Shown: piece after piece, positions 16,802 through 57,558 of the stretch
How the letters are laid out: every line of letters starts with the position of its first letter
Numbering within the stretch: position 1 is the stretch's first letter
From: a virus
Virus record (IMG/VR): IMGVR_UViG_3300028891_000010
Location: 1-63,046 of that record
DNA length: 63,046 nt
Strand: one strand, 5' to 3'
Notes under the pieces: generated by a model
Told to the model about the DNA's origin: nothing
Database searches by the model: none
Seen by the model: only the letters and a program-made list of their open reading frames with translations
Made by a program: the position numbers and the translations under genes

Positions 16802-17929
16802 ATGAAAAAATGGACAGAAGAAGAACTTAAACTACTAGAAAAATGTTACAATGAGGGGTTAACATACAGACAAATAGCTCGCTTGCTAAATAGAAGTGAA
16901 GACGCCATAGATCACGCAGTACGCAACTATAGACATGTTCTCGAATTTAACAGATCTAGAGAGCCTAAAAAATACCCATATCGTCAAATATTTAGAGAAG
17001 TTAAAAGCTATATAGATGATAATTTAGAAGCAATAATCGAAAAGAACTTTCAGTATTTTAGTAGAGTTCCTTATAGGGGCACTTATAAAAAAGAGAAACA
17101 ATCTGAAGACTTAGTAGGTTTGTTGAGTGACATGCATATCGGCTCTACTAACAAAGCACCTATTACTGGGGGTGTCACTTTTAATGACGACATACTAAAG
17201 AAAGAAGTAGCTAATTACATACGAGGAGTTAAACGTTTTTACGAGCTTTATAAACCATCATACAATATAGAGCATTTTTATATATTTGATCTAGGTGATA
17301 TCGTTACGGGAGATAGAATTTATGAGGGACAGCTTTACGAAATAACCAGAAGTGTGGGCCAGCAAGTTGTAATTGCTTTGGATTATCTATCTCATGTAAT
17401 TGTAAAAATGTCCGAAATATTTCCACAGGTCACTTATATTAAGATGGTAGGAAACCATGGTAGGAGCTATAGTGATAGAAACGTTGCAGAGCCTATTGAG
17501 AATAATTTTGAGTATTTATTGGGACTATTACTTAAAGAACGATTTAAAAGCAATAAAAGAGTTAACGTAGTGCTCCCAAATGATTACTTTTATTCAGCCC
17601 AGATAAGAGGTCATAAATACCTGTTAATGCATGGCGATTATATAAGAGGCACAGTGCTTACTACCATAGAAAAAGCAGTTAAAGAAATAGCGTTACTTTT
17701 AGGAAGAGACTTTCATGAGGTTATTACCATAGGTCATTTTCACTCAACTCATGAGCTTCCCATTGGTTCTGAATCTACTTTACTAATAAATGGATGTTTT
17801 ATTTATAAGGATTCATACGCATACAAACGACTTAGAAAGTTTTCCGTTGCCAAGCAATTATTATTCAATATATCTAAAAAATCAGCACTGCACAATTTAC
17901 AAAAAATAGACTTGAGGTGGTCATTATGA
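16802..17929 (+). CDS. HTH plus calcineurin-like phosphoesterase (375 aa)
   Basis: An N-terminal Myb/GcrA-like helix-turn-helix (about 3-48: WTEEELKLLEK, YRQIARLLNRSEDAIDHAV) precedes a metallophosphoesterase domain with LSDMHIGS, LGDIVTGD, GNHGR, LMHGDY and GHFHSTHE. The third motif reads GNHGR instead of the usual GNHD/E, a change next to the metal ligand. The combination implies a DNA-directed nuclease or phosphatase. Similar proteins occur in phages without a known role. It is distinct from the SbcD homologue at 13399, so the phage carries two enzymes of this fold. Confidence 0.8.
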   Translation: MKKWTEEELKLLEKCYNEGLTYRQIARLLNRSEDAIDHAVRNYRHVLEFNRSREPKKYPYRQIFREVKSYIDDNLEAIIEKNFQYFSRVPYRGTYKKEKQSEDLVGLLSDMHIGSTNKAPITGGVTFNDDILKKEVANYIRGVKRFYELYKPSYNIEHFYIFDLGDIVTGDRIYEGQLYEITRSVGQQVVIALDYLSHVIVKMSEIFPQVTYIKMVGNHGRSYSDRNVAEPIENNFEYLLGLLLKERFKSNKRVNVVLPNDYFYSAQIRGHKYLLMHGDYIRGTVLTTIEKAVKEIALLLGRDFHEVITIGHFHSTHELPIGSESTLLINGCFIYKDSYAYKRLRKFSVAKQLLFNISKKSALHNLQKIDLRWSL

Positions 17930-18573
17930 ATAAGTTGATAGAATATACCAATCTAAACCCTGCTTTAAACAGCAAAGAAATAAAAGAATTTACACTACTA
18001 GCGGCAGAAAGACAGTATCGTTCTGTAGTACTCACTTACAACTGTTGCTCAGTAGCTAAAAAATTAGTGGATCAAAACAACTTAAACTTAAAAGTAGTGA
18101 CAGTACTTGGATTTCCTTTTGACAGATATAATAGAGATATATTACAATTTTATAATAAATTTTATGATGAAATAGACGTGCTTATTCCTATTCACTTATA
18201 CTACTATAATTATCCTCCCTTTTTAAATGAAATAGAGAAGCTACTAAAAACTATTCGTTCTAGTCTGCCTAATAAAAGAGTTAAGTTTATAATTGAAACC
18301 ACTCTAATGAGAGACAAACCCAGGCAGATTAAAGAGCTATGTAAGCTAGCTAAAAAGTGTGGTGTAGATGTTATAAAAACATGCTCTGGATTATTTAAAG
18401 TTCCTAATAGAACCTTTCAAAATTTAGTGGAGGAGGTTAACTTAATTAAAAAATACTGGAAAAAAGGCATTAAAGCTTCTGGAGGCATCAAAACAAGAGA
18501 TGAAGTAAAGCAATTAGCTAAATTAGGTGTAAAATATATAGGAACTTCAACAGATATATTCAAAGAAAAATGA
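17926..18573 (+). CDS. deoC: Deoxyribose-phosphate aldolase-like protein (215 aa)
   Basis: DERA cleaves 2-deoxyribose-5-phosphate to acetaldehyde and glyceraldehyde-3-phosphate, draining deoxynucleoside breakdown. The barrel strands and catalytic lysines are present: VIKTCSGLF (Lys151, Schiff base), GIKASGGIKT (Lys183), EID in the middle and GTSTDIF at the phosphate-binding end; LGFPFD matches the family GFP-G loop. ATG 17926 overlaps the upstream TGA. The first strand (LTYNCCSVA) departs from the canonical sequence, so substrate could differ. The next gene, a GH13-like enzyme, overlaps by 4 bp and is probably co-translated. Confidence 0.8.
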   Translation: MNKLIEYTNLNPALNSKEIKEFTLLAAERQYRSVVLTYNCCSVAKKLVDQNNLNLKVVTVLGFPFDRYNRDILQFYNKFYDEIDVLIPIHLYYYNYPPFLNEIEKLLKTIRSSLPNKRVKFIIETTLMRDKPRQIKELCKLAKKCGVDVIKTCSGLFKVPNRTFQNLVEEVNLIKKYWKKGIKASGGIKTRDEVKQLAKLGVKYIGTSTDIFKEK

Positions 18574-19472
18574 AAATTCTGGAGATTCATAATAGGGTAA
18601 ATACTATTGAAGAAGTAAAAGAAGTAGAAAAATACTTTGACGCCTTTTATGTAATGGGAATTTATGAACCTACACCTTTTAGTAAACAACACAACGAAAA
18701 TTTTGGATTAGATGGTAGTTTATTTGCTATTTGTGATTATGAATTTCAAGTTATAGATATTAAACTTTTAGAATATTTAAGAGAAACGAATAAATCTATA
18801 ATAGTAGATTTTATTCCTAATCACATAGGTAGAGATTTTAAAAACACAGGTTACGGTTTTAAAGATTTGCGTTGGGGAAATTATGAATGGATTGATACAA
18901 TACAATTAAATTATTCTTCAAGAAACGTTTATGATTTTATGCTATGGAATATTAGATACTTATTGAAAGAATGCCAATTTCATGGTTTGAGATTCGATAT
19001 GGCACACCTATTATTACAAAAGAACTATAACAGAAAACATCATGTATGTTTAGGTTATGAACCTTTAGAAGAATTAATAGAAATGGCAAAACAAATAAAT
19101 TCTAACTGTATTCTAATAGCCGAAGCCTATCAAGATTATGATGATTTAAAAAATTTAGGATTTGATTACGTTTATAGAGTAGAACCAAGAAGAGGGCATC
19201 ATTTTATAGCTACCGATACTGATTTAATTGTGATGGACAACCATGATGAAAAATTACTTTATTGGGAGTGTTATGGTAATTTAGATTGTTTAATATACAA
19301 ATTAAAAAATTTGACTTCCTATTACGGTAATACTCTTTGGTATCTTCCTGCTATAATGGGCTATACTAAAAGACCGTCAGCAAATTACTGGTATAATAAA
19401 CAATGGGATATAAATCCAAAAGTAAAGGAAATCTATTTAGAAGTTTTAGAAAATGAAAATTCTACGAAATAG
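18570..19472 (+). CDS. Minimal GH13 alpha-amylase-like enzyme (300 aa)
   Basis: All four conserved GH13 regions occur in order: region I VDFIPNHIG (79-87), region II GLRFDMAH (139-146; Arg141 and nucleophile Asp143), region III LIAEAY (acid/base Glu185) and region IV VMDNHDE (221-227; His225, Asp226). The catalytic triad is therefore intact. At 300 residues it is a bare barrel, without domain B insertion or C-terminal beta domain, and it has no signal peptide, so it should act in the cytoplasm on alpha-glucosidic material or transfer glucose. It overlaps deoC by 4 bp. The substrate is unknown; a glycogen-degrading or trans-glycosylating role is possible. Confidence 0.85.
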   Translation: MKILEIHNRVNTIEEVKEVEKYFDAFYVMGIYEPTPFSKQHNENFGLDGSLFAICDYEFQVIDIKLLEYLRETNKSIIVDFIPNHIGRDFKNTGYGFKDLRWGNYEWIDTIQLNYSSRNVYDFMLWNIRYLLKECQFHGLRFDMAHLLLQKNYNRKHHVCLGYEPLEELIEMAKQINSNCILIAEAYQDYDDLKNLGFDYVYRVEPRRGHHFIATDTDLIVMDNHDEKLLYWECYGNLDCLIYKLKNLTSYYGNTLWYLPAIMGYTKRPSANYWYNKQWDINPKVKEIYLEVLENENSTK

Positions 19473-19644
19473 AGCTAAATGTTTAATTTGCGGAGAAATA
19501 TTAGAAAGCAAACATAGGCATGATTTTAAGACTTGTAAATGTGGCAATTTAAGTGTAGATGGTGGAAAAGATTACATAAAACGAAGCGTAAAATATATTG
19601 ACAAATACAGAGATTTAAGTAAAGTAGAGAAGGAGAAAAAATGA
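19453..19644 (+). CDS. DUF7695-type zinc-ribbon protein (63 aa)
   Basis: The sequence KCLICGEILESKHRHDFKTC, then KCGNLSVDGG, is the hallmark of a small phage/bacterial family I know as DUF7695, with CxxC...CxC zinc ligands and a conserved HRHDF. Its molecular role is not known. It starts inside the end of the GH13 gene (20-bp overlap) and opens a run of small Cys-rich genes. Confidence 0.7.
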   Translation: MKILRNRAKCLICGEILESKHRHDFKTCKCGNLSVDGGKDYIKRSVKYIDKYRDLSKVEKEKK

Positions 19645-19886
19645 GGCAAGAAAAGCGATTAAAAGTATTAAAAGTATCTTTTATTGTATATCTTTATCCT
19701 GATGGAAAAGTAGATTATATAGCTCGGAAATGTGAATCACCCAACGCTTGTGAGGATTGTAAATTTAATAAAATCTGTGAAAATATAGAAACACTTATAA
19801 AGATTGCAGATTTAATAAACAAAACAAGAATTAAAAAAGCTAAAAGAACTAAATTGAAGAAAAGAAAGAAAGGAATTAGAAAGTAA
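19641..19886 (+). CDS. Cys-rich basic protein (81 aa)
   Basis: Not recognised. Four cysteines at CESPNACEDCKFNKIC form a likely zinc or iron-sulphur site. The C-terminal 25 residues are almost all Lys/Arg (KKAKRTKLKKRKKGIRK), partly because the frame passes through the purine-rich site for the next gene. The basic tail would bind nucleic acid. Confidence 0.5.
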   Translation: MRQEKRLKVLKVSFIVYLYPDGKVDYIARKCESPNACEDCKFNKICENIETLIKIADLINKTRIKKAKRTKLKKRKKGIRK

Positions 19887-20191
19887 TGGCTAAGAAAAGA
19901 AAAAGTAGATTAGAAAGACTGTGGAAAATAGAAGCAGACCCTTGGGTATGTTGTGACGTATGTAATACTGTAGTTAGTTATGGTATTGACTGTCCTTTAT
20001 GTGGAAAGCCTATAACAAGATTTTTTGGGTGTGAAAAAATAAAAGATAAAAATATTTTTTGTAAGTTTTGTAAAATTCAGTTTGAAATAATAGATTTTCA
20101 AAAGTTCTTAACACAAGTAAATAATGAGATAGAAAAACAAAGTAGGAAGCCCATTGTTTTGCAGATAAAATTATTAGAGCACGATGCCTAA
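19886..20191 (+). CDS. Multi zinc-ribbon protein (101 aa)
   Basis: Three Cys pairs or clusters are seen: CCDVC, CPLCGKP and CKFCKI, so one or two zinc ribbons are likely, preceded by a basic N-terminus (MAKKRKSRLERLW). The family is not recognised. It overlaps the bL27-like gene downstream by 8 bp. A ribosome- or RNA-related role would fit that neighbour, but this is inference. Confidence 0.5.
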   Translation: MAKKRKSRLERLWKIEADPWVCCDVCNTVVSYGIDCPLCGKPITRFFGCEKIKDKNIFCKFCKIQFEIIDFQKFLTQVNNEIEKQSRKPIVLQIKLLEHDA

Positions 20192-20435
20192 ACGAAAAAA
20201 AAGTAGATTAGGTGGACATCATAATAATTTAGGAAGTAAAACTTGGAGAAAAAGAATTTATGCTAATGATGGAGAATTTGTAAAAGCTGGAAGTATTATT
20301 ATGAAAATAAATAAAAGTATTAAGTTAGGGGATAATGTTTATAGAAGTAAAAATATAATTCATTCCAAAATAGACGGAATTGTAAGAATAAAAGGAGATA
20401 GAGTATATGTTGATACGGAAAGGAAAAGAAGTTGA
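20184..20435 (+). CDS. rpmA: Ribosomal protein bL27-like (83 aa)
   Basis: The chain follows bL27 closely. An N-terminal basic arm has GG and NN (RLGGHHNN, bL27 usually GGSTRNG). Then come DGEFVKAGSIIM (bL27 G-x-V-x-AG-x-I), KLGDNVYRSKN (pG-x-NV-x-x-g) and SKIDGIVRIKGDRVYVD (dG-x-V-x-F with the final strand). Length is normal. In bacteria bL27 sits near the peptidyl-transferase centre. A phage copy could replace the host protein in ribosomes, or be a recruited beta-barrel with a new job. The usual RQRGT motif is changed. It lies in the accessory cluster of zinc-ribbon genes. Confidence 0.7.
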   Translation: MPKRKKSRLGGHHNNLGSKTWRKRIYANDGEFVKAGSIIMKINKSIKLGDNVYRSKNIIHSKIDGIVRIKGDRVYVDTERKRS

Positions 20436-21078
20436 AGAGTGTTGTAGAGTAGAAGATAGTTTCTTTCATATTAATGATAGACATGGTTGGGATACACTTG
20501 TATATTGTGTATGGTGTAAATCTGTATATGTTTGGTTTAGAGGCTGTTTTATGGATTTTTATTCTAACAAGAATTACCCACCTTCTAAATGGTTTAACAA
20601 AAAAATAGGTGTTTTATCTCCCACAGCAGAAAAACTTGTTTATATTGTATCTTCTGATTTAAATAAGTCTAATATTAAAAAATTCTGTCGTATTCAAGAG
20701 AAAGATATTTTAGGTTTTAATATTCGTAAATGCATTGCAGGAGCTGGGGTGGGTTGTCCTACTCCCGATGACTTTGGTGAAGCTTATTTACCTTTTATCG
20801 AGATTGAAGGTGTAGGAGCATTAAGCATCGCATTTGAAATGCGACCTTGGGTTCATGTATCAACACGCTATCATAGTTTTGAAGAAATTATGAAATATAA
20901 AGATGCTTTTAAAGAAGATACAATTTCTGAGACTTTAGAATTAGGAGGACTTTATGATTTAGAACAAGCGAGAACTATAATTAAATTTGTTATTGCTTAC
21001 TTAAAAGGAGAAATTAAATTTCTTCCTGAATGGAAGACTACAGGATGGTATAAAGTAAGAAAAAGGAGGAAAAAGTAG
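20407..21078 (+). CDS. Hypothetical protein (223 aa)
   Basis: Not recognised. The first 45 residues have CC and CVWCKSVYVWF, a possible zinc site, and a second Cys-rich stretch (CRIQEKD...RKCIAGAGVGCPTPDDFG) occurs near residue 100-125. The C-terminal half is helical. AAAGGAGA precedes the start, which lies within the bL27-like gene. The C-terminal RKRRKK comes from the ribosome-binding site of the following gene. Confidence 0.5.
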   Translation: MLIRKGKEVEECCRVEDSFFHINDRHGWDTLVYCVWCKSVYVWFRGCFMDFYSNKNYPPSKWFNKKIGVLSPTAEKLVYIVSSDLNKSNIKKFCRIQEKDILGFNIRKCIAGAGVGCPTPDDFGEAYLPFIEIEGVGALSIAFEMRPWVHVSTRYHSFEEIMKYKDAFKEDTISETLELGGLYDLEQARTIIKFVIAYLKGEIKFLPEWKTTGWYKVRKRRKK

Positions 21079-21516
21079 ATGTTAAAAAGAATTGATTTAT
21101 TTAAAGCTAAAAGCATTATTGAAGGACTTGATTATTTAAATAAAATTTTTTCTTCTAAATTTATGTGGCATAAATTAGAAAAAAGAAAAATCACAGATAA
21201 AATTTTTAACATTACTTTAATTAGAGAAGAACCCGAAACGGGAGTAAATGGACATGGTTGTGAACATTTGTTAATTTTTTCTCAAACCCTTACAGACATT
21301 TTTTATAGCATAGAAAAAACTGAAATATTTAAAACTTATATAGCAATTAAAATTCTCTTTTTTCCTAATAGCCCTATTTTTGATAAAAATGATTTTGTAT
21401 TTGAAGAGGATGCTAATTTTATTTCGAAAAAAGTGAGATTTCTTTTATTAGATTTGCCTTGTGGAGAATACACTAAGAAAGAATTAGAAAAAATAGTAAG
21501 AAAAAGGAGGAAATAA
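21079..21516 (+). CDS. Hypothetical protein (145 aa)
   Basis: Not recognised. It is Lys/Phe-rich, mixed alpha/beta, with a loop NGHGCEHLLIF in the middle and strands IAIKILFFP. GGAGG precedes the start. The end carries another AAAAAGGAGG site that reads as basic residues. Position within the accessory small-gene run is all that can be said. Confidence 0.45.
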   Translation: MLKRIDLFKAKSIIEGLDYLNKIFSSKFMWHKLEKRKITDKIFNITLIREEPETGVNGHGCEHLLIFSQTLTDIFYSIEKTEIFKTYIAIKILFFPNSPIFDKNDFVFEEDANFISKKVRFLLLDLPCGEYTKKELEKIVRKRRK

Positions 21517-21681
21517 ATGTCTCTCAAAAGTAAAATATTGAGAATATTACGAAAAGAAGCAATATTATATGATGAAACAGAAGGAACTTATGCTATATTT
21601 AGTAGTGACGAGACATTTGAAAGAGTGGCAGAAAAGATTGCGGAAATGGTTAAGAGGAGCATTAAAAAGAAAAGGAGATAA
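21517..21681 (+). CDS. Hypothetical small protein (54 aa)
   Basis: A short frame starts at ATG 21517, right after the previous stop, with AAAAAGGAGG seven bases before it. It reads as two amphipathic helices around a short acidic turn (YDETEGTYAIFSSDETF) and a basic tail. It fills what would otherwise be a 167-bp gap, and its spacing and ribosome-binding site match its neighbours, so I accept it as a gene of unknown role. Confidence 0.55.
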   Translation: MSLKSKILRILRKEAILYDETEGTYAIFSSDETFERVAEKIAEMVKRSIKKKRR

Positions 21682-21683
21682 AG

Positions 21684-22085
21684 ATGGATTTATCGCTTCG
21701 CTACATAAAAATGTGTGAAAAAGCGAAACAGTTACAAAAAGAATGGAAACCTAAAATTGGTGATTTTTATAATTGTGAAGGAGAAATATTTTTAAATGGA
21801 TTTGAAAAAGAAAAAGATTTTGAAAATTTTCTTAGAAAAACTGAAAAATGTTTCTGTGTTTTTAAACAAGACCAATTACAAGAAATACTTAACTTAAAAG
21901 TAATTAAATATGGATTACTAAACGAAATAGGTAACATTCTATATAGGGCTTATAAAGATAGATATGTTTCTGGATTTGCTTTTGATTCATTTGAACAACT
22001 ATGGCTTGCTTTTGTAATGTATAAAAAATATGGAAAAATTTGGGATAATAAAAAAGAAGAATGGATTAAGGAGGAAGAGAGATGA
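21684..22085 (+). CDS. Hypothetical protein (133 aa)
   Basis: Not recognised. Helical with many aromatic residues (GFAFDSFEQLWLAFVMYKKYGKIWDNKKEEW). This resembles small phage proteins that hold a 'phage ABA sandwich'-like fold only in general character, so no call is made. AAAGGAGA precedes the start, and the stop overlaps the next ATG. Confidence 0.45.
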   Translation: MDLSLRYIKMCEKAKQLQKEWKPKIGDFYNCEGEIFLNGFEKEKDFENFLRKTEKCFCVFKQDQLQEILNLKVIKYGLLNEIGNILYRAYKDRYVSGFAFDSFEQLWLAFVMYKKYGKIWDNKKEEWIKEEER

Positions 22086-22270
22086 AATTTCATATTCATA
22101 TTTACGAAGTTAAATCAAAGTATGAAATAGATATAGAAGCAAATAATCCAATTGAAGCTAAAACAAAAGCTATTGAAATGTATAAAACAAACAAAGAGAA
22201 ACTTATAAAATGCGAAAAAGATTGTGACATAATAGTTTTAGCTTTTAATGAGAAAGGAGAAGAAGTATGA
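22082..22270 (+). CDS. Hypothetical small protein (62 aa)
   Basis: Not recognised. A beta-alpha-beta pattern (FHIHIYEVKSKYEIDIEA, then a helix NPIEAKTKAIEMYKTNK, then CDIIVLAFN) suggests a compact ferredoxin-like half-domain. It overlaps both neighbours by 4 bp, so it is translationally coupled. Confidence 0.45.
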   Translation: MKFHIHIYEVKSKYEIDIEANNPIEAKTKAIEMYKTNKEKLIKCEKDCDIIVLAFNEKGEEV

Positions 22271-22854
22271 AGAAAAACAAGAAGACAATATCGGGTAGAG
22301 GTACAAGACCAAAAACATGCAAACCTAAATGGATTTTAGAGAAGAACCAATCGAAAGCAAAACTTCATTATAATTTTAGACATAATCACTTAGTGCCTTT
22401 AGTAGGATTTAGAGTGGATTTATATGAAAACGAAGATGAGTATGGTTGGGGACGAATGGATGAAAGTGTAAGTTTTGTAGTAGAAAAAATAGAAAATAAT
22501 AAATTATATGTAAAAGTTTATCATATGAAACATATAGGAGAGTATAAACATATAGGAAAACACTTAGAAGATAGTCATAAGCTATATGAAGTAGATTTAA
22601 GTAAGGATTTTGATGAAAGTAATGTAAAAGAAGTAAAAGAAATAGATACTAAAGAGAAACTGTGGAAAGAATCATCTCTAGGTAATTTGTTAGAATTGTT
22701 GACAGGAGAAACTTTTCGAGTAGTTGAGAGTAGTCTAGAAGAAAGACTTTGGAGAGCAGTTAGTAAATCTTACGAATTTAAATTTATAGATTGTGGAAAC
22801 GGATGGTGTAAGCTTATTGAAGGTAGTTTTAAGAAAAGGAGAAAAAAGAAGTGA
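22267..22854 (+). CDS. Hypothetical protein (195 aa)
   Basis: Not recognised. A basic N-terminal arm (KKNKKTISGRGTRPKTCKPKW) is followed by a beta-rich domain with repeated His (KVYHMKHIGEYKHIGKHL) and an acidic helical part. The C-terminal FKKRRKKK again overlaps the site for the next gene. The basic arm suggests nucleic-acid contact (inference). Confidence 0.45.
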   Translation: MKKNKKTISGRGTRPKTCKPKWILEKNQSKAKLHYNFRHNHLVPLVGFRVDLYENEDEYGWGRMDESVSFVVEKIENNKLYVKVYHMKHIGEYKHIGKHLEDSHKLYEVDLSKDFDESNVKEVKEIDTKEKLWKESSLGNLLELLTGETFRVVESSLEERLWRAVSKSYEFKFIDCGNGWCKLIEGSFKKRRKKK

Positions 22855-22940
22855 GACTTGTAACTATAGCATTATTTCAATTTACTTGTATGTTATTGGG
22901 TTTCATAATAGGTCTTTTAATTTTTCGGAGGTACAAATGA
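22851..22940 (+). CDS. Single-span membrane miniprotein (29 aa)
   Basis: A GTG start at 22851 with AAGGAGA upstream leads a 29-residue frame consisting of one hydrophobic helix (about residues 4-25) and a basic end RRYK. The stop overlaps ATG 22937 of the next gene, and the CGGAGG site for that gene lies within it. The size suits a small membrane effector or a leader peptide. Weak support by length alone, better by arrangement. Confidence 0.4.
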   Translation: MRLVTIALFQFTCMLLGFIIGLLIFRRYK

Positions 22941-23479
22941 ATGATGTCATTTTATTTGCTGAAAAAATTATAGAGTTCAAATCAGTGTATTTAGCAGGAG
23001 GTATTCAAAATCGCAATAATCCCGAAAGCTGGAGAGAGCCTTTAACTAAATTCTTTAAGTCCAATAATATAGAGGTGTACGATCCTGTAAAAGATAATGA
23101 GAATATTTTTAACCCAAGCGTGCTAGGTCTAGATGTTAAAACTCTAAGTGATTTAATGGGAGTGGACGAACTAAAACATGCTGTGCTACTGAAACAGACC
23201 GAACTAAATGATATGTACGTTGTCAAAAACAAAGCAGATCTAGTGGTATTTTATCTAGATGGGACTGAAAGCTTTGGAACTTGGACAGAGTTTTCTTGGG
23301 TTTATAGTTTAAAGAAGCCTTTTATAATAGTAAGAACTGAGCCTCGTAAAAAATTACCTGACTGGGTAAAGTGGAGACGATACTATGCTTTAATTATAGA
23401 TAGAATAGCGTTGGAATTTAGAAGTTTTGAAGAGTTAAAAAGATTTTTTATAGAATATTTAGGATTCAAAGATGTATAA
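22937..23479 (+). CDS. Nucleoside 2-deoxyribosyltransferase-like protein (180 aa)
   Basis: I start at ATG 22937 (CGGAGG seven bases upstream) because an in-frame start 144 bp upstream would overlap the whole preceding gene. The N-terminal VYLAGGIQ, the WREPL helix, YDP loop and the later NKADLVVFYLDGTESFGTWTEFSWVY are the pattern of the nucleoside deoxyribosyltransferase/DUF4406 superfamily. This group binds nucleotides or cleaves N-glycosidic bonds. The Glu in TWTEF would be the catalytic residue. Together with the DeoC-like and dNTP-hydrolase genes it points to handling of unusual deoxynucleotides. Confidence 0.75.
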   Translation: MNDVILFAEKIIEFKSVYLAGGIQNRNNPESWREPLTKFFKSNNIEVYDPVKDNENIFNPSVLGLDVKTLSDLMGVDELKHAVLLKQTELNDMYVVKNKADLVVFYLDGTESFGTWTEFSWVYSLKKPFIIVRTEPRKKLPDWVKWRRYYALIIDRIALEFRSFEELKRFFIEYLGFKDV

Positions 23480-41356: not shown

Positions 41357-41366
41357 AATTGAAAAC
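41357..41366 (-). promoter_or_regulatory. GTTTTCAATT (one-mismatch copy) upstream of connector operon
   Basis: Nine of ten bases match the recurring element. It is read on the - strand, immediately followed by TAAGGGAGAGG and ATG 41341. The motif starts in the end of the upstream glycan gene, so it separates the sugar-gene pair from the connector genes. Confidence 0.55.
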
Positions 41367-43024
41367 TATACTTTACTATAAAAAACTCTATGAAGATGTT
41401 TAATACTATTTATAGCGTTAAGACTAGTATCACCTATATAGTTTGGATCAATAGGTCTAAAGCCTTCTATAGAAAAGTGATAATCCCACCATTCTTTAGG
41501 CTTTAAGTTAATGTGAGTTTTGTCTATATCGTTATCAGCCTTTGCTATTTGATTTTCGTAGCCTAATACTAGAAACAGATATAACAAACATCCTTTTTTA
41601 CACACTCGTTTAAGTTCTTTTACAAGTAATGGTACTAATTCTGTTGGTAAATGCTCTAAAACTTGCTGAGAATAAATCAGGTCAAAATAGTTATCGGGAA
41701 ACATACGAAGGTCATGTATTGAAGAAACAAATAATTTATTTTTTAAATTTAGTTTTTCTTTTCCTACTTCAATAGCATACTTAGATATATCAACTCCTAT
41801 AAAATCTTTGTTTCTCTTATTCACTAAATAAACAAAATAACCTCCACCACAACCTAGCTCTAACCCTCGCTTAAAAGGGACTTTAGATATCATATCCGCT
41901 AAAACTTTTTGTACTTCGGTTTTAACTACTGCGTTACTATAATTAGATTTAGTCTTTCGAGTCCAGTACTCCCTATCAAAATAACTAGTTATTTCTTGAA
42001 GTTTGTTGTGCCCATACTTGGCTTGAAGATGTCTATAAAAAAAAGATATAAAAAGCTTTTCACAGTCCTTTAGCTTACTCTCGTTTATAGTAGCTCTTTC
42101 AAAGCTGCATTGTAATGGGTTGTTTAAAAAATCTTTGAACTTATATACTTTAAGACCTAAGTATTCTAATATGGTAGATCTACTATCTATTAGAATGTGA
42201 ATGGTAGGTACTCCAAACACAGTAGCTAGAACAGAACCATGAACTCTAAGAGATATTACCTGATTAGCATGAGAATATAATTTAACTAAAGATTTAGGAT
42301 CATTTACACATATAATATCTGGAAAATACTGCTTAAATATATAGTAATCAGTTAAATCATGTGCTATGTGTAAAATAGGTCTAGTTCTATCCAGTTTCTG
42401 AGATAGTATTTTTAAACTCTTTGTAATTCTACTATTCCACTTCCCTAGATTTTTTACTACCACTAAGTTAACAGACTTATTTTCAAATTTAATACCGTAA
42501 TAAAAGGGAGTATAACATACAGAATCATAAAGTAAAAAGTTTTGTATGTCACATTCATCTAAAATTTGTTTGGTTATGGGGCTCCTAGAAATTATCAAAT
42601 CATATACATTAAAGTTTCCTTGTATAAAGTCTCTATGACTGCCTACTATAGTATTGATATTTTTATAGTTCACGGAATCTTGATTTACTATACCTATCCA
42701 TAAGTTAGCGATTCTTTTATTGATTTTCTTAGCTAATCGAAGTTTATCGTAAAAAGGCCTGTTAAAATATACAGGTATTTTATGACTTAGCTGAGGAGTA
42801 CCACATAGTATAATATAATCAATATCCTCTATAAGTTTTAACCACTCGTTATTATCCATTTTGTACACATTAAAAATATTAGCATATCGAAATATAGGAA
42901 AATTGCAGAGCTCTTTTTCTGCTTGTAGTATTAAATATTCTATACCTTTACCTATTAGAATGTCTCCTGGATTTGGATTTTCATAACTAGTATCTGTGAT
43001 TAATAAATATTTTCTAATATTCAT
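41366..43024 (-). CDS. Polysaccharide pyruvyl transferase / SAM methyltransferase fusion (552 aa)
   Basis: The N-terminal ~330 residues resemble polysaccharide pyruvyl transferases: NPGDILIGKGIEYLI at the start, SRSPITKQILDE, and ISLRVHGSVLATVFGVPTIHIL, the 'R.H..v.a...g.P' motif. The C-terminal ~190 residues are a class I methyltransferase with LELGCGGGYFVYLV (SAM loop), GVDISKYAI, and FDLIYSQQVLEHLP. The fusion suggests sequential decoration of one sugar. It lies between capsid and connector genes beside a GT9 enzyme with 4-bp overlap. It may modify virion or host surface glycans. Confidence 0.8.
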   Translation of the reverse strand: MNIRKYLLITDTSYENPNPGDILIGKGIEYLILQAEKELCNFPIFRYANIFNVYKMDNNEWLKLIEDIDYIILCGTPQLSHKIPVYFNRPFYDKLRLAKKINKRIANLWIGIVNQDSVNYKNINTIVGSHRDFIQGNFNVYDLIISRSPITKQILDECDIQNFLLYDSVCYTPFYYGIKFENKSVNLVVVKNLGKWNSRITKSLKILSQKLDRTRPILHIAHDLTDYYIFKQYFPDIICVNDPKSLVKLYSHANQVISLRVHGSVLATVFGVPTIHILIDSRSTILEYLGLKVYKFKDFLNNPLQCSFERATINESKLKDCEKLFISFFYRHLQAKYGHNKLQEITSYFDREYWTRKTKSNYSNAVVKTEVQKVLADMISKVPFKRGLELGCGGGYFVYLVNKRNKDFIGVDISKYAIEVGKEKLNLKNKLFVSSIHDLRMFPDNYFDLIYSQQVLEHLPTELVPLLVKELKRVCKKGCLLYLFLVLGYENQIAKADNDIDKTHINLKPKEWWDYHFSIEGFRPIDPNYIGDTSLNAINSIKHLHRVFYSKV

Positions 43025-44346
43025 AGCTTTTTAAGATATTTAACGATTGTTTCTGGTTTAATTGACCTCATACAAGCGTCTTTAATTCTATTACATAGGC
43101 ATTTATCAGGATCTATGCTTTGACGATCATCACATTTAAAGCAAGGTACACTAGGTCTAATAGGTATGCAATTTTCATAAGTAGAGCATCTCCATTCTGG
43201 TCTAATAGGTCCAAATAAAGCTACTGTTTTTTTATCAAATGCTCCTGCTATATGTAAAACACTAGTATCTACTGTTATAACGTAATCTGCTTGTTTTACT
43301 ATAGCAAATAGCTGTCTTATATTAGTTTTTTTCTGTAAATTAATACAGTTATGAAAATCAAATTCTTGCGTTCCTACTACTATGGGAGTGTAACCTTCTG
43401 ATTTCAGTAAGTTAATAAGTTGTTGAGTTAAATCTGAAGGATACGTTCTGTTGGAACCTACTGCGTACCAACATATAGCAACTGTGTTTTTGTAGTTTTT
43501 TAGTAAATCCCTAGCATGTTCTTTTTCTTCGTCGCTGAGTACTATAATTGGTTTTTTAATCAGTAAGTCTTTGGGATTTAAACCACATAAATAAGCTGTC
43601 GAATAAATTCTATGTTGCCTATTATAAAACTGTTTATAATTGCTTAACCGATATGATAATATAACAAAGCTGTGATATTGATGGATAGGAACATCTTGTC
43701 TTAAATAATAAACTTTGTCTATAAAGTCTAAATTATCAAAAATACACATTCTATTTCTATCCACTATATAGGAAACTTTCCAACCTTTCTTATGCAGTGT
43801 ATAAGCAGCAGGTAAAGACATTAATACGTCTCCTAATCCGTCAAAGGTTTCTATTAAAAAGCGTTTGTTTTGTTTTAGGTCTTTTTTAATAGATTGTAAC
43901 ATAGGTAATTCGTCTGGAGATTTAATCACTGGTAAGATAAAGCCCCAGTGGGTAGCAAATAGTTTAGCTACCTGTCTAGCTCTTGGAGTGTCATTACTAA
44001 AAACAGCTTTAAAAACAGCTGGGTTTTTAAACAATAAATGAGAAAACCATCTAAAATCCGTTTCTATATAAATTATATTATCGTGAATTATACGATTATC
44101 AGGAAGTTTAGTGCAGACGTATATTATTCCTATATTGCGTCTTAAGATAGATTTGATAAATTTAACATCTAATTTTTTACCATAGTGGTGAAATCCAAAA
44201 CCCACTATATAATAATCGCAGTCTAAAGGTAGGAATACAGAAGTTCCTGTACTGGCATATAAGAACTTATGATTTGTAACGGATTTATAATAAGTAGTAA
44301 CTGTATGCCAATTTGGATTATGAGCTAAATATAAAATGGGAGACAT
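43021..44346 (-). CDS. GT9-family glycosyltransferase (heptosyltransferase-like, 441 aa)
   Basis: GT9 enzymes transfer heptose or related sugars to lipopolysaccharide-type acceptors. FDGLGDVLMSLPAAYTLHKKGW (about 168-189) is the GT9 N-domain loop. CWYAVGSNRTYP, VGTQEFDF and YVITVDTSVLHIAGAFDKKTVALFGP (about 360-385) form the donor-binding C-domain. Cys-rich CFKCDDRQSIDPDKCLC near the end may hold zinc. An extra ~150-residue N-terminal region is shared in order with the paralog at 57548. A terminator-like hairpin separates it from the capsid gene upstream. Confidence 0.82.
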   Translation of the reverse strand: MSPILYLAHNPNWHTVTTYYKSVTNHKFLYASTGTSVFLPLDCDYYIVGFGFHHYGKKLDVKFIKSILRRNIGIIYVCTKLPDNRIIHDNIIYIETDFRWFSHLLFKNPAVFKAVFSNDTPRARQVAKLFATHWGFILPVIKSPDELPMLQSIKKDLKQNKRFLIETFDGLGDVLMSLPAAYTLHKKGWKVSYIVDRNRMCIFDNLDFIDKVYYLRQDVPIHQYHSFVILSYRLSNYKQFYNRQHRIYSTAYLCGLNPKDLLIKKPIIVLSDEEKEHARDLLKNYKNTVAICWYAVGSNRTYPSDLTQQLINLLKSEGYTPIVVGTQEFDFHNCINLQKKTNIRQLFAIVKQADYVITVDTSVLHIAGAFDKKTVALFGPIRPEWRCSTYENCIPIRPSVPCFKCDDRQSIDPDKCLCNRIKDACMRSIKPETIVKYLKKL

Positions 44347-44399: not shown

Positions 44400-45386
44400 T
44401 TATGAATTAGGATTATACAGAGCAACTATTCCTTCATAAGTTCCAGAAGAGTTTTTCAAAACAGGTTTAAAATCTACTTCTTCAGCAATAATGATTCTCT
44501 TCTTGAACTCGTCAACTAAATCTTTTGTTCTGAAAGCCACATTCTTCCTAATTCCAATGATGAAAGCATCTTTTCTAACTAACACTGCACAGTTTCCAGC
44601 ATACTTATCGTCAAGATATGTGGTCTCTAAAACTTTAACTCCTAAAATCGGAGGTAGATGTCCTGTCTTCAAAACATCAGTATCTACACGATACTCTTGA
44701 CTGTAGACTCTATCAGTCTTTCTTAAGTTAGTAGCAAACTTAGAACCACATACCAACACTAAATTCACTGGCTCTTTTCCGTAAACTCCCAGAGCATTCT
44801 TAGCATCTGCGATCTTATCTACTAAATTATCAGAGCTAGAAAAAGTAATTGGAGATGTGGCCGCTGCTAAGGTTCCCTCTCCCTTAGCTACTGTCCAGAT
44901 ACCATCGAAAGCTTTATCATATGTCTGATTCCCAGATGCATAAACTCCTTTAATCATGGCGATCTCTTCAGCAGCCGCTAACTGAGTAGTTAATGTCTGT
45001 CTGATGTATTTAGCCAAGTCCACGATTGCTGTTTCGAGATCATCTTCAATAACATCAACATAAGCTACTAAGAGTCTAGGAGTTAAGATTACTGAACCAG
45101 TGCTGAATGTTTGCTCATTAAGAGCAGATGCAATGCTAGTCCCATACCCTATAGTCTTAACGTTATTAGAACCGTAAGTAAGCACAGGAATAGTAAGGTT
45201 TCTAGCACTCTTAGGAACCTGAATGCTAGGAAACAAACGTCTGATGATATTTTTCTCTTTAATCTCCTCAATAACCTTCTTAGCTATGGGGCGAGGAAGA
45301 TCATCACCACTAGGAGAATCCAACTGACCTAAATCATCTGCTTTAATTAAATCCAATAATTTTTTCTCAAGATCCTTTTTATTCAT
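44400..45386 (-). CDS. Major capsid protein, HK97 fold (328 aa)
   Basis: Typical HK97-type layout: a short helical N-terminal leader (1-45), an N-arm with IIRRLFPSIQVPKSARNLTIPVLTYGS, E-loop and spine (about 70-140: AEEIAMIKGVYASGNQTYDKAFDGIW), A-domain (NLVLVCGSKFATNLRKTD) and the end VALYNPNS. Residues 15-33 (KADDLGQLDSPSGDDLPRP) recur inside the 1495-residue polyprotein (980-998), probably marking a processing or targeting signal. The leader is short compared with the 102-residue HK97 delta domain. AAAGGAGGTG precedes the ATG. Upstream is the protease-scaffold. Confidence 0.9.
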   Translation of the reverse strand: MNKKDLEKKLLDLIKADDLGQLDSPSGDDLPRPIAKKVIEEIKEKNIIRRLFPSIQVPKSARNLTIPVLTYGSNNVKTIGYGTSIASALNEQTFSTGSVILTPRLLVAYVDVIEDDLETAIVDLAKYIRQTLTTQLAAAEEIAMIKGVYASGNQTYDKAFDGIWTVAKGEGTLAAATSPITFSSSDNLVDKIADAKNALGVYGKEPVNLVLVCGSKFATNLRKTDRVYSQEYRVDTDVLKTGHLPPILGVKVLETTYLDDKYAGNCAVLVRKDAFIIGIRKNVAFRTKDLVDEFKKRIIIAEEVDFKPVLKNSSGTYEGIVALYNPNS

Positions 45387-46523: not shown

Positions 46524-48362
46524 CTAAATATGGAAATTTAAATATTTATATAAACTACTATATATTAACTCTACGTCTTCCAAAAGTATAATATCTATAT
46601 TTTTCTTTTTGCCTCCAAAGTAGTGTTCTTCATACTCTCTTTGCTTCTTTTCTTTAGGCTTATAACATATCCAAATTCTCCTACCTCCTATAGGAGCATA
46701 CATAAATACTATCCAGTCATTAAGAAGTTTTCCTTTAAATTTAAATAATTTAAAATGTCTTCCGTGAGGAGAAGTCTGCCTTCCTGCAAACCACTCTCCA
46801 TAATCATGTCTCCAGAAGAAAGCATATGCATTAGGAGTGCTTCCTATACTATTTGGTGAAACTACAAATGGTTCTTTTGCTCCTATATTTAGCCAACTAT
46901 TATGTACTACAAGCAAACCTGTTAAAAAGCTTTCATCCTCTTCTACCTGAAAATCGTAAAGTCTGATAGAAGTTTTGGAATTGTTCTCTAAGCTTTTTTT
47001 ATTGATAGAATAATACCAGAAATTCTCATCTTCTTCTTTTGGAGAGCTATAAGAACATACTTTTTTGTGAAACTCTACTATGTACGTTGTGTGTTTAGGA
47101 ATTATGGTATGTTTTTTATTAAGTCTGATAATCTCATTTGTATGTTTGGTATCTATTTTTCTTAATGTTGGATAATAACCTAAGCGCATTCCTATATACA
47201 ACACTTGCCCTATTAGATGTCTAGAAACTGATGTGTAACTATAAGCATCGTAAGTTTTGATGTTTTTCAACTTAGTCCCGTCGCTATCCATTAAACCTTT
47301 AAAAACAGCTTTTAGTTTATTATCAGGTAAATATAAAACCCACGAAGGTAGTTTTTTGAACCAAGATTTATATCCTAATCTATGAAGTTCTTCTTTAGAA
47401 GCACAATAGCAGTTCTCCTTTAACCACGTTACTAAACCTGAATCATAAAAACGTAAACTAGGATTTGTATTATAACAGACTCCTACATGATCTACTTTGA
47501 ACAGTTTTTTAGTTAGTTGTATAAGTTTATTAGCCTCATCTGTATTAGCACATTCTATACTAACTCCATGGCTTGCCATGTAAGTAGAACTTTTGCTAGA
47601 GATATTATGCGATGTGCTTACGTGACCATCTCCCACATAAAAACCTAACCAATAGCAGAAGTCTTCATTCACTGGAACTCTTTTAGTATATCCTGGAGGT
47701 ATAGTTAATTCTATATAATTAACATCTTTTATTTCAGGTTTAGGTTTAGGTAACAATAGTAAATCTTTGCTAGGACTAATCTCTCTTTCTAATTTTAAAC
47801 CATCTTTGGTAAATATACGGTGGTTGTTAAAATATATAGCAAAGTTACTACCATCAGGTTTTATATAGCAAAATCTATTTGATACTCCTTTTTCCATTAC
47901 TTTATCTTTAAACTGATTTCCAGGAGTAGTCCAGTGGCCTCCTTCAAAGTAAGAAGCTAGTTTTTTCTTTTTAGGATCTGTATAAGGAACTAGTCTTAAG
48001 TCTTGATGTATGCTTACTGGATCTAATAAAGCTATGATGTGTTTGATTTCTTTAGGTAAAGATTTAAATTTTTCTTCGTCTTTTAGTACTTTATCAATTA
48101 ATTTAGTTAGTTTCTTAGAACTTTTACCTTCTTGAGAGGCTTCTTTTATAGCTGATTTCCAGGAAAAGTTATAGTGTTTTTCAACTTTTTCTATTTTATT
48201 ACTATCTAAAAAATAATCTCTATCTAAACCAAACTTTTTCATATCAGATTTAGTAATATAGTCTATTAATTCAACTCTTACGCCACGTATATGAGTCTGA
48301 ACACAGTATTTTCCTGTCATGCCTTCTTCAATTGTCCATTGACCTGTATTTACTTTTATCAT
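46524..48362 (-). CDS. LigD 3'-phosphoesterase-like protein interrupted by an intein (612 aa)
   Basis: The flanking parts resemble the 3'-phosphoesterase (PE) domain of LigD. The N-part has GKYCVQTHIRG, VSIHQDLRLVP (like 'R-LHYDLRLE'), and FEGGHWTTPGNQ. The C-part has SWLNIGAKEP, GSTPNAYAFFWRHDYGEWFAGRQT, and FKFKGKLLNDWIVF. Between them lies an intein with LAGLIDADG motifs (YWLGFYVGDGH, 237-247; FKGLMDSDG, 354-362) and the C-terminal splice motif DESFLTGLLVVHN|S (Asn488-Ser489). It overlaps the ligase polyprotein by 4 bp, so a PE and a ligase are encoded side by side. PE homology is by eye and could instead indicate a related structural domain. Confidence 0.7.
   Translation of the reverse strand: MIKVNTGQWTIEEGMTGKYCVQTHIRGVRVELIDYITKSDMKKFGLDRDYFLDSNKIEKVEKHYNFSWKSAIKEASQEGKSSKKLTKLIDKVLKDEEKFKSLPKEIKHIIALLDPVSIHQDLRLVPYTDPKKKKLASYFEGGHWTTPGNQFKDKVMEKGVSNRFCYIKPDGSNFAIYFNNHRIFTKDGLKLEREISPSKDLLLLPKPKPEIKDVNYIELTIPPGYTKRVPVNEDFCYWLGFYVGDGHVSTSHNISSKSSTYMASHGVSIECANTDEANKLIQLTKKLFKVDHVGVCYNTNPSLRFYDSGLVTWLKENCYCASKEELHRLGYKSWFKKLPSWVLYLPDNKLKAVFKGLMDSDGTKLKNIKTYDAYSYTSVSRHLIGQVLYIGMRLGYYPTLRKIDTKHTNEIIRLNKKHTIIPKHTTYIVEFHKKVCSYSSPKEEDENFWYYSINKKSLENNSKTSIRLYDFQVEEDESFLTGLLVVHNSWLNIGAKEPFVVSPNSIGSTPNAYAFFWRHDYGEWFAGRQTSPHGRHFKLFKFKGKLLNDWIVFMYAPIGGRRIWICYKPKEKKQREYEEHYFGGKKKNIDIILLEDVELIYSSLYKYLNFHI
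46899..47870 (-). mobile_element. Intein with LAGLIDADG endonuclease
   Basis: The C-terminal junction is clear: VHN before Ser489 of the host protein (46899-46901 for Asn). The block F/G string FQVEEDESFLTGLLVVHN is diagnostic. Two LAGLIDADG motifs identify a homing endonuclease. Cys165 (47868-47870) is the best N-terminal candidate since an intein must begin with Cys/Ser/Ala, followed by FNNHRIFTKDG resembling block B. The distance between the two is unusually short, so the N-junction is uncertain. Confidence 0.7.
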
Positions 48363-49627
48363 GACTTTAACCTAGCAGCTAGATTCTTAATGGTTTTTAA
48401 TATGTAAGGATACCCACTTATTTCTTTGTCAAAAGACTTGTTAAAGCTAAATTTGTCATGAAGGTTTTTTATCTCTCTCAAGGACTGTTTTAGAAGCTCT
48501 AAAGTAACCTTTTTACCGTTACTCAGTAAGAAAGATCTAACTATAACCTCTTTCAGATGTGCAGGAGTTAATCCTTCAGATATCCTAGCAATACATGCAA
48601 GAGATTTTTTCTTATTTTCTATATCTATATTTTCACTGTATCTCCAAAGAATTTTAAATCTAAGAACTGCATCAGGTAGCTTAAACTCAATAATATCGTC
48701 AAATCTTCCAGGACGATCTATTAAAGTTTTGGGAAGCCTTTCAGGAAAATTAGTAGTTAGTATAGTTAGTATTCCTTCGTTAGGTACCAATCCATCCATC
48801 TGAGTCTTAATAGTGTCTAGTGTTGGTCCTTGTAAGCATCTATCAATGTCCTCTATAAAAAGTATTGACGGCTGTAACTCTCTAGCCATATCGAATAAGT
48901 AGGAAGTTTTCAAATGCATAAAGTCTGTTGCAGTTACCCATATAAAAGTAGCGTTTTTAACAGTATTCATTATAATTTTTCCTGACAAGGTTTTTCCAGT
49001 GCCAGGAACACCTGAAAAAATAACACCTCGTTTAAAAGGAATATTTGCTTTTTCATATTTCTCTTTGTGATTAAAGAAACTAAATACTGTGTCATTCAGC
49101 TTTTGAAGAGTACTCTTATCTAGAATTATCTTATTACTATCTATACTGGATAATGGTAAGAATTTTCCAAATGGAGTTATTTTTTCGTTCTTCCAAGGAT
49201 TATTATTATTGACGAAACGATGAATGTCCTTTACAAAGGAATCAATAAACGAGTAGTCCTTATCTCTACCATAAATAACAAGCTTTTGACAGTCAAAGGC
49301 AGGGTAAAAATGAATTACCAAAGGAACAGTGTCTTTAACGATAATAAACCCACTTACTAATAACCTTTCTTTAGTGTCTCTACCTACTTCAAGCAGTTCA
49401 TAAGTAGCGGGAACGTATGTTTCGTTATACTTTAAATTAATTATCTTCACTTCTTTTTCTTTCACTGCATTTTTTAGTCCTTTAGAGTAAAGAGCTACCT
49501 TATAAAAAGGAATCTGGATATCCAAACGAGTCTGACCGAAAACATCTACTCCTAAGATTTTTTCTAAGACTCTATCTAGCAAGCTTTTAGAACCCATGCC
49601 TTGGGGTAACTGAATTTCCTTTTTCAT
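48359..49627 (-). CDS. Nested in-frame AAA+ ATPase (422 aa)
   Basis: Residue 1074 of the polyprotein is ATG 49627, with AAAAGGAGGTATAGAG before it. The codons preceding it read ISKGGIE, exactly what a ribosome-binding site gives when translated through. The product would be a complete AAA+ protein with N-domain (about 1-170), Walker A, Walker B, sensor-1 (TTN) and Arg-finger. Independent translation, with occasional readthrough from a lost stop, is plausible. This could be a remodelling or packaging-associated ATPase. Confidence 0.6.
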   Translation of the reverse strand: MKKEIQLPQGMGSKSLLDRVLEKILGVDVFGQTRLDIQIPFYKVALYSKGLKNAVKEKEVKIINLKYNETYVPATYELLEVGRDTKERLLVSGFIIVKDTVPLVIHFYPAFDCQKLVIYGRDKDYSFIDSFVKDIHRFVNNNNPWKNEKITPFGKFLPLSSIDSNKIILDKSTLQKLNDTVFSFFNHKEKYEKANIPFKRGVIFSGVPGTGKTLSGKIIMNTVKNATFIWVTATDFMHLKTSYLFDMARELQPSILFIEDIDRCLQGPTLDTIKTQMDGLVPNEGILTILTTNFPERLPKTLIDRPGRFDDIIEFKLPDAVLRFKILWRYSENIDIENKKKSLACIARISEGLTPAHLKEVIVRSFLLSNGKKVTLELLKQSLREIKNLHDKFSFNKSFDKEISGYPYILKTIKNLAARLKS

Positions 49628-52600
49628 CTCTATACCTCCTTTTGATATTAACAATTCACAAAGAGGAGCTCTGTTAATAATTGTATAAGAGTTAATTTTA
49701 TCAGCTTTAACTCTCTGTAGCTTGCCTCCACAAATAGGACATATTAAATTGTTAGGAAGTTCTTCATCGCTATCTATAGTATAGTCACACTTTTCACATC
49801 TATAAACGTATTTAGGTTTTTCTTTAGAAGGTTTTGTAGGTTCTGTAGATACAGGCCAAGGTAAAGGATCACCATGAGGAGAAGTTATTTGACCTAAATC
49901 ATCTGCTTTTAATAAAGCTTCATAAAAAGACTGTGCTTTTTCTACACTCATTCTATCTATAACTAAATAACTATCAGGCTCTTTCTTATTGGGTTTAAGT
50001 GTAATAACTCTACTCTGAAAAAGAGTATAACGAATTTTGCTGTTAACTTTTTCTTTTTTATACTCAGTAGCTGCTATGTTTAATATCTGCCCTACTTCAG
50101 CCTTGATCTCAGTATTAAAGGTTTTTCCAAGAACTCCATACCATTTACCGTTTAGCTCTTTTATAGGTGTAAACAAGTCTTTTTTATCTTGAGGTATTCC
50201 GTAACCTACTGTGTAATTATAAACATTTTTATTTTTGACTTTGTGAACTTCTAAGACTATTGTATCTGCCTCATAGCTATACTTCGCTTTTACCCATGTC
50301 ATAGTCTTACCATCTAACTCATAAACTCCACTATAAGCTTTTATCATTAATCCATCTATTCCATTTAATCCTCCTAAACGATAAGATCCTAAGTGATGCT
50401 TTAAATAGTTAAATTTCTTTACTAATTGTTCTTTAGTCTTAATATCAAATCCAGGACATAGTACAAAGTGCTTTTTGAATTTTTTAGAGACCTCTTTTAA
50501 AACTTTTAGTCTTTCCGATAAAGGTTTATTGTGTAAATCTTCTCCATTGTAATAAAGAATGTCGAATACAAATACTCTAACATTCTCATCAGATCCTGGT
50601 TTTTTAGCTTGAGACCACTTCATTAAATCGTGTCTAGATAACCATCTATTTTTATTAGGATCCCATTCCATTAGTTCTCCATCTAAAATAATACCTGAAT
50701 CATGTAAAGTTGATAGTTCTTTAACTAAACTAGGAAGCTTACTTGATACATCTTTCATAGCATCTTCAAAGTAGATTAAACTTTTTTTGTTAGCATCTTG
50801 AGAAGCAATCATTCGAAAGCCATCAATTTTATATTCTGCTCTAACTTTACCTTCTTGCTCTACATAAAACTTACAGAAGTACTCCCAAGCTTCTTCTGGA
50901 TCAAAGTATTCAAGTTCGTGGTAAGAGCTAGCGGTTGCTTTCAAAGGAGGAAATCTCATAAGAGGTTTAAGCTTTTTGTCTTTTTGGATAGACTTACCTA
51001 CTCCAGGTCTATCACATCTTCTCATTTCTCCATTGCACCGAGGACACTTAATATCCTTACAGTGGTTATCAGATATCATCTTATAGCCGCAGTCTAAACA
51101 CTCACAGCAGAACTTCTCTTTTTTGAAATGAAGTATAAATTTACCATCGTAGTATCTAAAAGTAGCTGGTCTTATTATAACTGCGTCGTATTTATTTTTA
51201 ATTGAGCTTAAAAAACTCCACAGTTTACTCTTTTTAACTATCCATCTAATAGGCAAATAAAAAGGTCTATCTGCTTTGTTTAACCATTTCTTGTGCATGA
51301 ACAATAATCTATTTATAATGATTTCTTTAAATAAGTTATCGCTTCTATACGCTAACAAGTCAGTAATAATCTCCTTATTATTATCCGTTATTACATGCTC
51401 ATAAATTAGTCTGTTTTTCTTATCAACTACTATTCCATGCTTGCCTTTGATAAGAGGCTCTATTACATACGTATCAGACTTGAAAGGAAGTTTTGGAATA
51501 ATTTTACAAGATTTATAAAATTTAGTATAGTCAGGAAGTCTAGGGTTAACTATATTGGGTGAGTCTTTTTTCTTTAATATCAAATCATATACATTTAAAA
51601 CATCACCATGAGATATCTCATTTCCTATATAGTGAGGATTGTATTTTTTTAAAAACTGTTTAATGGCTTTGTATATGACTTCTGGGGATATTATATCTAA
51701 ATCATTAGGATCACTCTTGTGTAAAGACGAACCAACAAATCTAACTATATTGCTCTTAATAACTATCTCATCCTGCAGCTCATTCCATATCTCATAAACT
51801 TTTATTTCTCTTCCTAGAATACGATATGTTTTTTTATCTAGATCATTAATTACACGATGTTTTAATCCTCTCCTAAACATTTCTTTAACTACTAAAACAT
51901 GAACTTGAAGAACTTTATTAGTTTTCTTAATGGCCCATAACTGATGACACCTTAAGTGAACCATTAGTAACTCTTTTTTAGAAATTTTTCTAAGTATATC
52001 GGGATTGTTTAGGATAGTATCGAAGCCCGGCTTCAAAACAAACTCGTCTCTTTGACTATATAATTTATTTAAGTCTATTAATAGCTTTTCGCCTTCTTTA
52101 GCTGTCCTTATTTCTACTATTTTACAGTTAGGATGTTCTTTTTTATATTTTTTAAGTCTTTCTTTTAATATTTTGTTGGCTTTACTAAATTCGGGCCACT
52201 GATTTCCCATTCCAGTAAACAGAGTATATTTATTATTTAGACTTAGTATGAAATCTAAATGTTCCAATACAGCTACATGATTATTCAAAGGTATTTGATG
52301 ATCCCAGTAAGCACCATCTAAAATAGCTAAGATGTTATTAGAAAAATACTTAAGTTCATATTCGTCCCATATTGGACCTCCATCTGACATATATACAAAA
52401 ACGTTATCTATATTATAAGCAACAGTAGGAAAACGAGGATCGTGAAATACTTTTAAAGCTTTTATAGTGTGATCTACTATTTTGAAAGGTTTTTTAGTAC
52501 CAATAGGAACAAATAAATAGTTGCTATAGGATTTTTCAGACCATCTTAGTTTAATTCTTTCAAAGACTTGAGGTAAAGCGTATAGTTCGACTGTTTTGTT

Positions 52601-57375: not shown

Positions 57376-57558
57376 CTATTTACCCCACTTCAAGTAGCAA
57401 AACATTATTACTACAAGTAAAAAATAAATAGCATTAATTATCTTTGTGGATCTATGGTTGTGAAGGTGATTAGTAAAATGCTTGTCTAGATTCTGTAATT
57501 TAACCTCTAAGACAGCAATTCTTTCTAAAATCTCTACAAAATACTTCTTAACGTCCAT
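57376..57558 (-). CDS. XhlA/holin-like membrane protein (60 aa)
   Basis: An N-terminal coiled-coil (ILERIAVLEVKLQNLDKHFTNHLHNH) followed by a single C-terminal membrane helix (KIINAIYFLLVVIMFCYLKWG) is the layout of PBSX XhlA-type proteins. These associate with holins in lysis. It is preceded by a GTTTTCAATA copy and GGGAGGA. No endolysin gene was recognised next to it. Confidence 0.65.
   Translation of the reverse strand: MDVKKYFVEILERIAVLEVKLQNLDKHFTNHLHNHRSTKIINAIYFLLVVIMFCYLKWGK

Follow-up and report, generated by a model that had tools for sequence, protein, structure and literature searches.

The maltogenic amylases of subfamily GH13_48, among them AmyB of T. neapolitana (PDB 4gkl) and the L. 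plantarum enzyme 3dhu, are built of three canonical domains, A, B (30-40 residues) and C (PMC11239784), in a total of ~420-450 aa. AmyB is an intracellular enzyme that liberates maltose from starch and glycogen, and a Cys directly before the catalytic nucleophile, common to GH13_49 (81% of sequences), is a mark of the subfamily (PMC11239784). The GlgB branching enzymes (GH13_9) are full-length, multi-domain proteins of 600+ aa. Viral members of the family have been described as well: alpha-amylase/GH13 genes were found in viral contigs from mangrove soil, in a paper that refers to rumen viromes as well (PMC6460857), and in viral contigs from landfill (PMC12607003), and Microcystis phage MaAM05 carries an annotated glgX.

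Here we analyze a GH13-type gene in a 63,046 bp viral sequence (IMG/VR record IMGVR_UViG_3300028891_000010, positions 1 to 63,046; hereafter, the window). Like the GH13 genes of mangrove, rumen and landfill viral contigs and the MaAM05 glgX, it is an accessory gene. Given these earlier cases, the view taken in an initial sequence-only reading, that few, if any, phage GH13 genes exist, was too strong. Whereas the landfill viral amylase has a near-identical bacterial counterpart (PMC12607003), the protein encoded here is divergent, and its gene spans 0.9 kb versus 2.2 kb for the MaAM05 glgX. It is this small size and divergence, and not its being a GH13, that makes the phage protein distinctive. 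If active, it would rank among the smallest GH13 enzymes and would test whether the superfamily functions without domain C and helix alpha6, and it would suggest that the phage, which has a complete set of replication genes, exploits host alpha-glucan stores.

Identification of a compact GH13-type protein

The ORF begins with ATG and remains open over 300 codons (Table 1). Comparison of its product with NCBIfam returned GlgB (E=1.4e-6) and TreZ (E=4e-5), with a GlgB score of 27 bits against a cut-off of 741 bits, and the PDB sequence search returned GlgB 6joy (E=2.6e-4). GlgB enzymes thus provide the best curated-library and PDB sequence matches, covering residues 65-180. A profile made from 19 cellular GH13 proteins scored the product at 53 bits (E=2e-16), while the next-best ORF in the window reached 3.6 bits and the best of 2000 shuffled copies 6.9 bits. 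Because these 19 sequences were picked by their similarity to the phage query, it is the curated-library matches that constitute independent evidence for GH13 homology. The Pfam Alpha-amylase model (PF00128) scored below its cut-off (17.5 vs 22 bits); since this cut-off is a sensitivity threshold and not a biochemical definition, we refer to the protein as GH13-type and make no formal CAZy assignment. A PHROG comparison yielded no match. Judged from these sequence comparisons, the ORF is a real gene for a predicted GH13-type (alpha-amylase superfamily) protein, and we consider it almost certain that its product adopts the GH13 fold.

The initial reading had all four GH13 regions intact in the 300-residue protein, and this was confirmed. 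Regions I, II, III, IV and V are all recognizable, against the four to seven conserved regions by which clan GH-H is delimited, and the subsite -1 and catalytic residues are complete (Y57, D80, N84, H85, R141, D143, E185, H225 and D226). The Asp/Glu/Asp triad (D143, E185, D226) is placed after predicted strands at residues 139-142, 181-186 and 220-222.

Table 1. Features of the GH13 locus and its surroundings in the window.
Feature	Positions	Strand	Remarks
HTH + metallophosphoesterase gene	16802..17929	+	left neighbor of deoC in all three phages
deoxyribose-phosphate aldolase (DeoC/DERA)-like gene	17917..18573	+	core gene of this phage group
Accessory block: GH13 + nine small ORFs (~4.2 kb)	18570..22792	+	no counterpart in L032, L033
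GH13-like compact barrel ORF	18570..19472	+	300 aa; full catalytic residue set; without domain C
GH13 region I, DFIPNH (D80, N84, H85; residues 80-85)	18807..18824	+	end of beta3
GH13 region V, TIQLN (residues 110-114; ends L-N, D109 before)	18897..18911	+	as in GH13_48
GH13 region II, GLRFDMAH (residues 139-146; R141, putative nucleophile D143)	18984..19007	+	end of beta4
GH13 region III, LIAEAY (residues 182-187; putative acid/base E185)	19113..19130	+	end of beta5
GH13 region IV, MDNHD (residues 222-226; H225, putative transition-state stabilizer D226)	19233..19247	+	after beta7
nucleoside 2-deoxyribosyltransferase-like gene	22793..23479	+	right border of block; weakly similar ORF after deoC in L032/L033

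Structural models and domain composition

Two AlphaFold models, generated from different, shallow alignments, reached pLDDT values of 61.7 and 59.8 and pTM values of 0.66 and 0.62, and both place the catalytic residues directly after beta3, beta4, beta5 and beta7. Foldseek searches against the PDB with either model retrieved mainly GH13 structures at probability 1.0, comprising branching enzymes, TreZ and debranching enzymes, with AmyB (4gkl) at rank 9 for the second model. The structure comparison that the initial reading had proposed as a check hence returned GH13 at the top; yet TM values to GH13 structures are ~0.4, the beta7-beta8 half is modeled at low pLDDT and is unreliable, and the C-terminal third is predicted poorly, so that the active-site geometry is not proven. 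A comparison with the library of viral structure models gave no convincing GH13 match.

Domains B and C had both been described as missing. This holds for domain C: no further GH13 segment was found downstream in any frame, and a DUF7695 zinc-finger protein gene begins 20 bases before the GH13 stop. It does not hold for domain B, which is reduced, because the beta3-alpha3 loop that occupies its position comprises ~35 residues, within the range of GH13_48. Between regions III and IV, ~20 residues of the cellular homologs are lacking at the position of helix alpha6, which on this alignment seems to have been lost, and a 13-residue insertion relative to the same homologs follows region II (residues ~150-165). 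Without alpha6 and domain C, the protein might be less stable or take a different substrate.

Relationship to cellular and viral GH13 proteins

The phage protein has the region I-IV catalytic residues in common with the GH13_48 amylases, and its region V also ends in L-N after an Asp (W-I-D109-T-I-Q-L-N), following the L-[DN] pattern given for that subfamily (PMC11239784). Unlike GH13_48 enzymes, it consists of domain A and a short domain B, with alpha6 shortened and domain C absent, and carries Phe instead of Cys directly before the putative nucleophile (GLRF-D143). It also differs in having no GQ at the end of region VII/beta8 (none in residues 245-300); in an ungapped reading from NHD, aligned by eye, PAIMG occupies the corresponding position. 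With two GH13_48 marks present (L-N and the preceding Asp) and two absent (Cys and GQ), we do not file the protein in GH13_48.

In cellular genomes, the phage protein is closest to GH13 proteins of Bacteroidota, ~490-500 aa in length, with 38-44% identity over residues ~106-203. Their framework (GSPYAIRDY..DFVPNH..DW.DTVKLNY..EVY..FDYLYD..NHDE; e.g. loci L006, L008 and L009) can be aligned with the phage protein, but they possess domain C and, in most cases, a larger domain B, whereas the phage protein lacks domain C and alpha6 and carries the 13-residue insertion. The best PDB matches of one of these relatives (L006) are 4gkl and 3dhu, both assigned to GH13_48 (PMC11239784). Among the 795 Chloroflexota and Bacteroidota genomes searched, 56 had matches, none of them to a bare barrel; every matching open frame measured at least 345 aa.

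No viral GH13 relatives were recovered from IMG/VR with the protein query, with a hand-made degenerate probe alignment, whose rows are invented sequences serving only to broaden the search patterns, or with an alignment of real homologs; these scans rely on short peptide patterns, so distant viral GH13 relatives may go undetected. The deoC protein likewise retrieved no relatives from IMG/VR, and no close homolog of the phage GH13 was found. Many GH13 matches in the phage collection came from unannotated faecal or bacterial-looking records, the latter impression being drawn from two that were read. Two of the matches (MT838276 and MT835815) were rejected as phage GH13 genes, as both are ordinary GlgB genes on contigs carrying cellular genes.

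Genomic context and conservation of the locus

Scans with the polymerase, capsid and terminase identified a sole close contig, L003, which does not include the GH13 locus. Using the phosphoesterase gene as query, we identified L032 (67 kb) and L033 (90 kb), both viral contigs related to the window. The gene order of L032 matches that of the window through recA, SbcC, phosphoesterase, deoC, QueD, a dATP/dGTP diphosphohydrolase-like gene, terminase and portal, and most of these genes are 44-69% identical; L033 shares a more divergent subset. In both contigs, deoC adjoins the phosphoesterase gene and GH13 is absent, with no match to either the query or Pfam PF00128; the ORF directly after deoC is instead weakly deoxyribosyltransferase-like and not recognized by Pfam. 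No ORF of the accessory block has a convincing counterpart in L032 or L033, and synteny resumes past it. GH13 is therefore an optional accessory gene, and since neither the nearer nor the more distant relative has it, a gain in the lineage of the window is favored. As the gene is optional, any benefit that it brings must depend on host or habitat. The conserved linkage with deoC that the initial reading had suggested looking for was not borne out, and a functional deoC-GH13 unit was rejected on the basis of synteny, as deoC is kept without GH13 in both relatives. A small ORF within the accessory block (20184-20435, +) matches Pfam Ribosomal_L27 (25.5 bits, cut-off 20.5) and may encode a bL27-like protein. 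The terminase large subunit of L032 (14583-17444) is 953 aa long versus 605 aa in the window, with an apparent intein containing a nuclease-like segment.

The deoC product retains the catalytic Asp, Lys and Lys residues (DEID, IKTCSG and KASGG, aligned with T. maritima DERA, 3r12), with an NCBIfam score below the cut-off (85 vs 117 bits), and its true start is probably the ATG at 17926, behind a GAGG site. The GH13 ATG overlaps the deoC stop by 4 bp (ATGA at 18570-18573). The reported 4-bp coupling to a DeoC-like aldolase is thus real as an overlap with a DERA-like gene, but such overlaps are common, occurring in 14 of the 74 same-strand neighbor pairs of the window. Shine-Dalgarno sites (GGAG/GAGG) precede 36 of 71 starts against a background of 4.5%, and none was found before the GH13 ATG. 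Together with the ATGA overlap, this absence makes it probable that translation of GH13 is coupled to that of deoC. The strong use of Shine-Dalgarno sites speaks against a typical Bacteroidota host, even though the DpdA-like protein of the phage has relatives in Flavobacteriia phages.

Proposed function and alternative interpretations

The product of the GH13 gene is likely to be an active enzyme. It would be a retaining glycoside hydrolase or transglycosylase with little beyond the catalytic barrel, operating by double displacement with D143 as nucleophile, E185 as acid/base and D226 as transition-state stabilizer. The enzyme would be an early product of infection, encoded in the accessory block behind the core deoC gene and located in the cytoplasm of the host; no signal peptide is evident in its N-terminus (MKILEIHNRV...), and the gene is located among replication and nucleotide genes. 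It would act on alpha-1,4-glucans, among which host glycogen or maltodextrins are the likeliest, and the outcome would be short sugars for the infected cell or a remodeled glucan, from which the phage might benefit. Starch, maltodextrin and glycogen are the substrates of the characterized relatives that match best. As the best explanation we regard an accessory enzyme of the cytoplasm that works on host glycogen or maltodextrin; we hold this with about as much confidence as doubt, and give glycogen or maltodextrin as the substrate an even chance. Of the roles first suggested for the protein, mobilization of host glycogen thus appears possible, whereas glucosylation of DNA gained no support.

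The enzyme might also be active but take a different small molecule as its substrate, for instance trehalose, sucrose or a glucosyl phosphate, in the manner of TreZ, TreS or a phosphorylase. TreZ appears among both the NCBIfam and the Foldseek matches, region II is as similar to GlgB/TreZ as to amylases, and the insertion after region II may reshape the pocket. Scores to such families nevertheless fall far under the curated cut-offs, and in trehalose and sucrose enzymes the pocket is usually closed by domain B and other loops, which are small in the phage protein; we therefore consider this reading unlikely, if still credible. A target outside storage glucans, with the protein adding glucose to or removing it from virion glycans, cell-surface glycans or modified DNA, is improbable. 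The phage does encode two GT9 glycosyltransferases and a pyruvyl transferase-methyltransferase fusion, one GT9 gene and the fusion lying beside the capsid gene, as well as genes for DNA modification of the 7-deazaguanine type, and GT9-like genes are retained in the relatives. These relatives lack GH13, however, so the GT9 genes do not require it. The known 7-deazaguanine modification pathway has no hexose step, and one relative keeps FolE2, a DpdA-like ORF and QueD without GH13. No UDP-glucose-dependent DNA glucosyltransferase was recognized among the scanned proteins, and we know of no precedent for a GH13 acting on nucleic acid. A bolder proposal, which we treat as a long shot, is that a minimal GH13 enzyme, a barrel lacking domain C, evolved in the virus and turned from storage glucans to an acceptor or substrate specific to the phage, be it a glycan of the virion, the surface or nucleic acid; it would then be the founding member of a viral subfamily of GH13.

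The shortened barrel, the low similarity to cellular GH13 proteins and the absence from relatives could also reflect a gene in decay, or a non-catalytic protein that serves, like 4F2hc, in binding or as a scaffold. The 300 open codons with every conserved active-site residue, the dense operon and the absence of a domain C remnant downstream in any frame argue against this, and we deem it rather improbable. Finally, the failure to find a viral relative and the resemblance of several phage-collection GH13 matches to bacterial DNA might point to a chimeric or mis-assembled contig that includes a host gene. The low GC content of the gene (0.276; GC3 0.19) is, however, equal to that of its overlapping phage neighbors, and it overlaps both the deoC gene retained in the relatives and the gene downstream, with synteny returning after the block, which makes an assembly artifact very improbable indeed.

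Additional features of the window

The DNA modification set of 7-deazaguanine type comprises FolE2 (9731), the DpdA-like protein (10902), which is related to Cellulophaga and Flavobacterium phage proteins, QueD (23578) and a ParB-TGT fusion, in which a ParB/Noc-like domain is joined to a TGT/DpdA-like domain (59896-61542, -). The GT9 glycosyltransferases and the pyruvyl transferase-methyltransferase map to 41366-44346 and 57548-58813 (-), partly beside the capsid gene. L032 and L033 carry two GT9-like genes each, and virion glycosylation is possible. A 1495-aa protein (48359-52846, -) combines a metallo-beta-lactamase fold, an ATP-dependent DNA ligase, a zinc ribbon and an AAA ATPase, and is partly kept in L003. 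Another gene (46524-48362, -) contains a LAGLIDADG intein-like segment of ~1 kb (~46.9-47.9 kb) that is absent from L003. The motif KADDLGQ(L/I)xSPxGDxLPxP occurs both near the N-terminus of the major capsid protein (44400-45386, -) and around residue ~980 of the ligase fusion, and is perhaps a common cleavage or targeting site.
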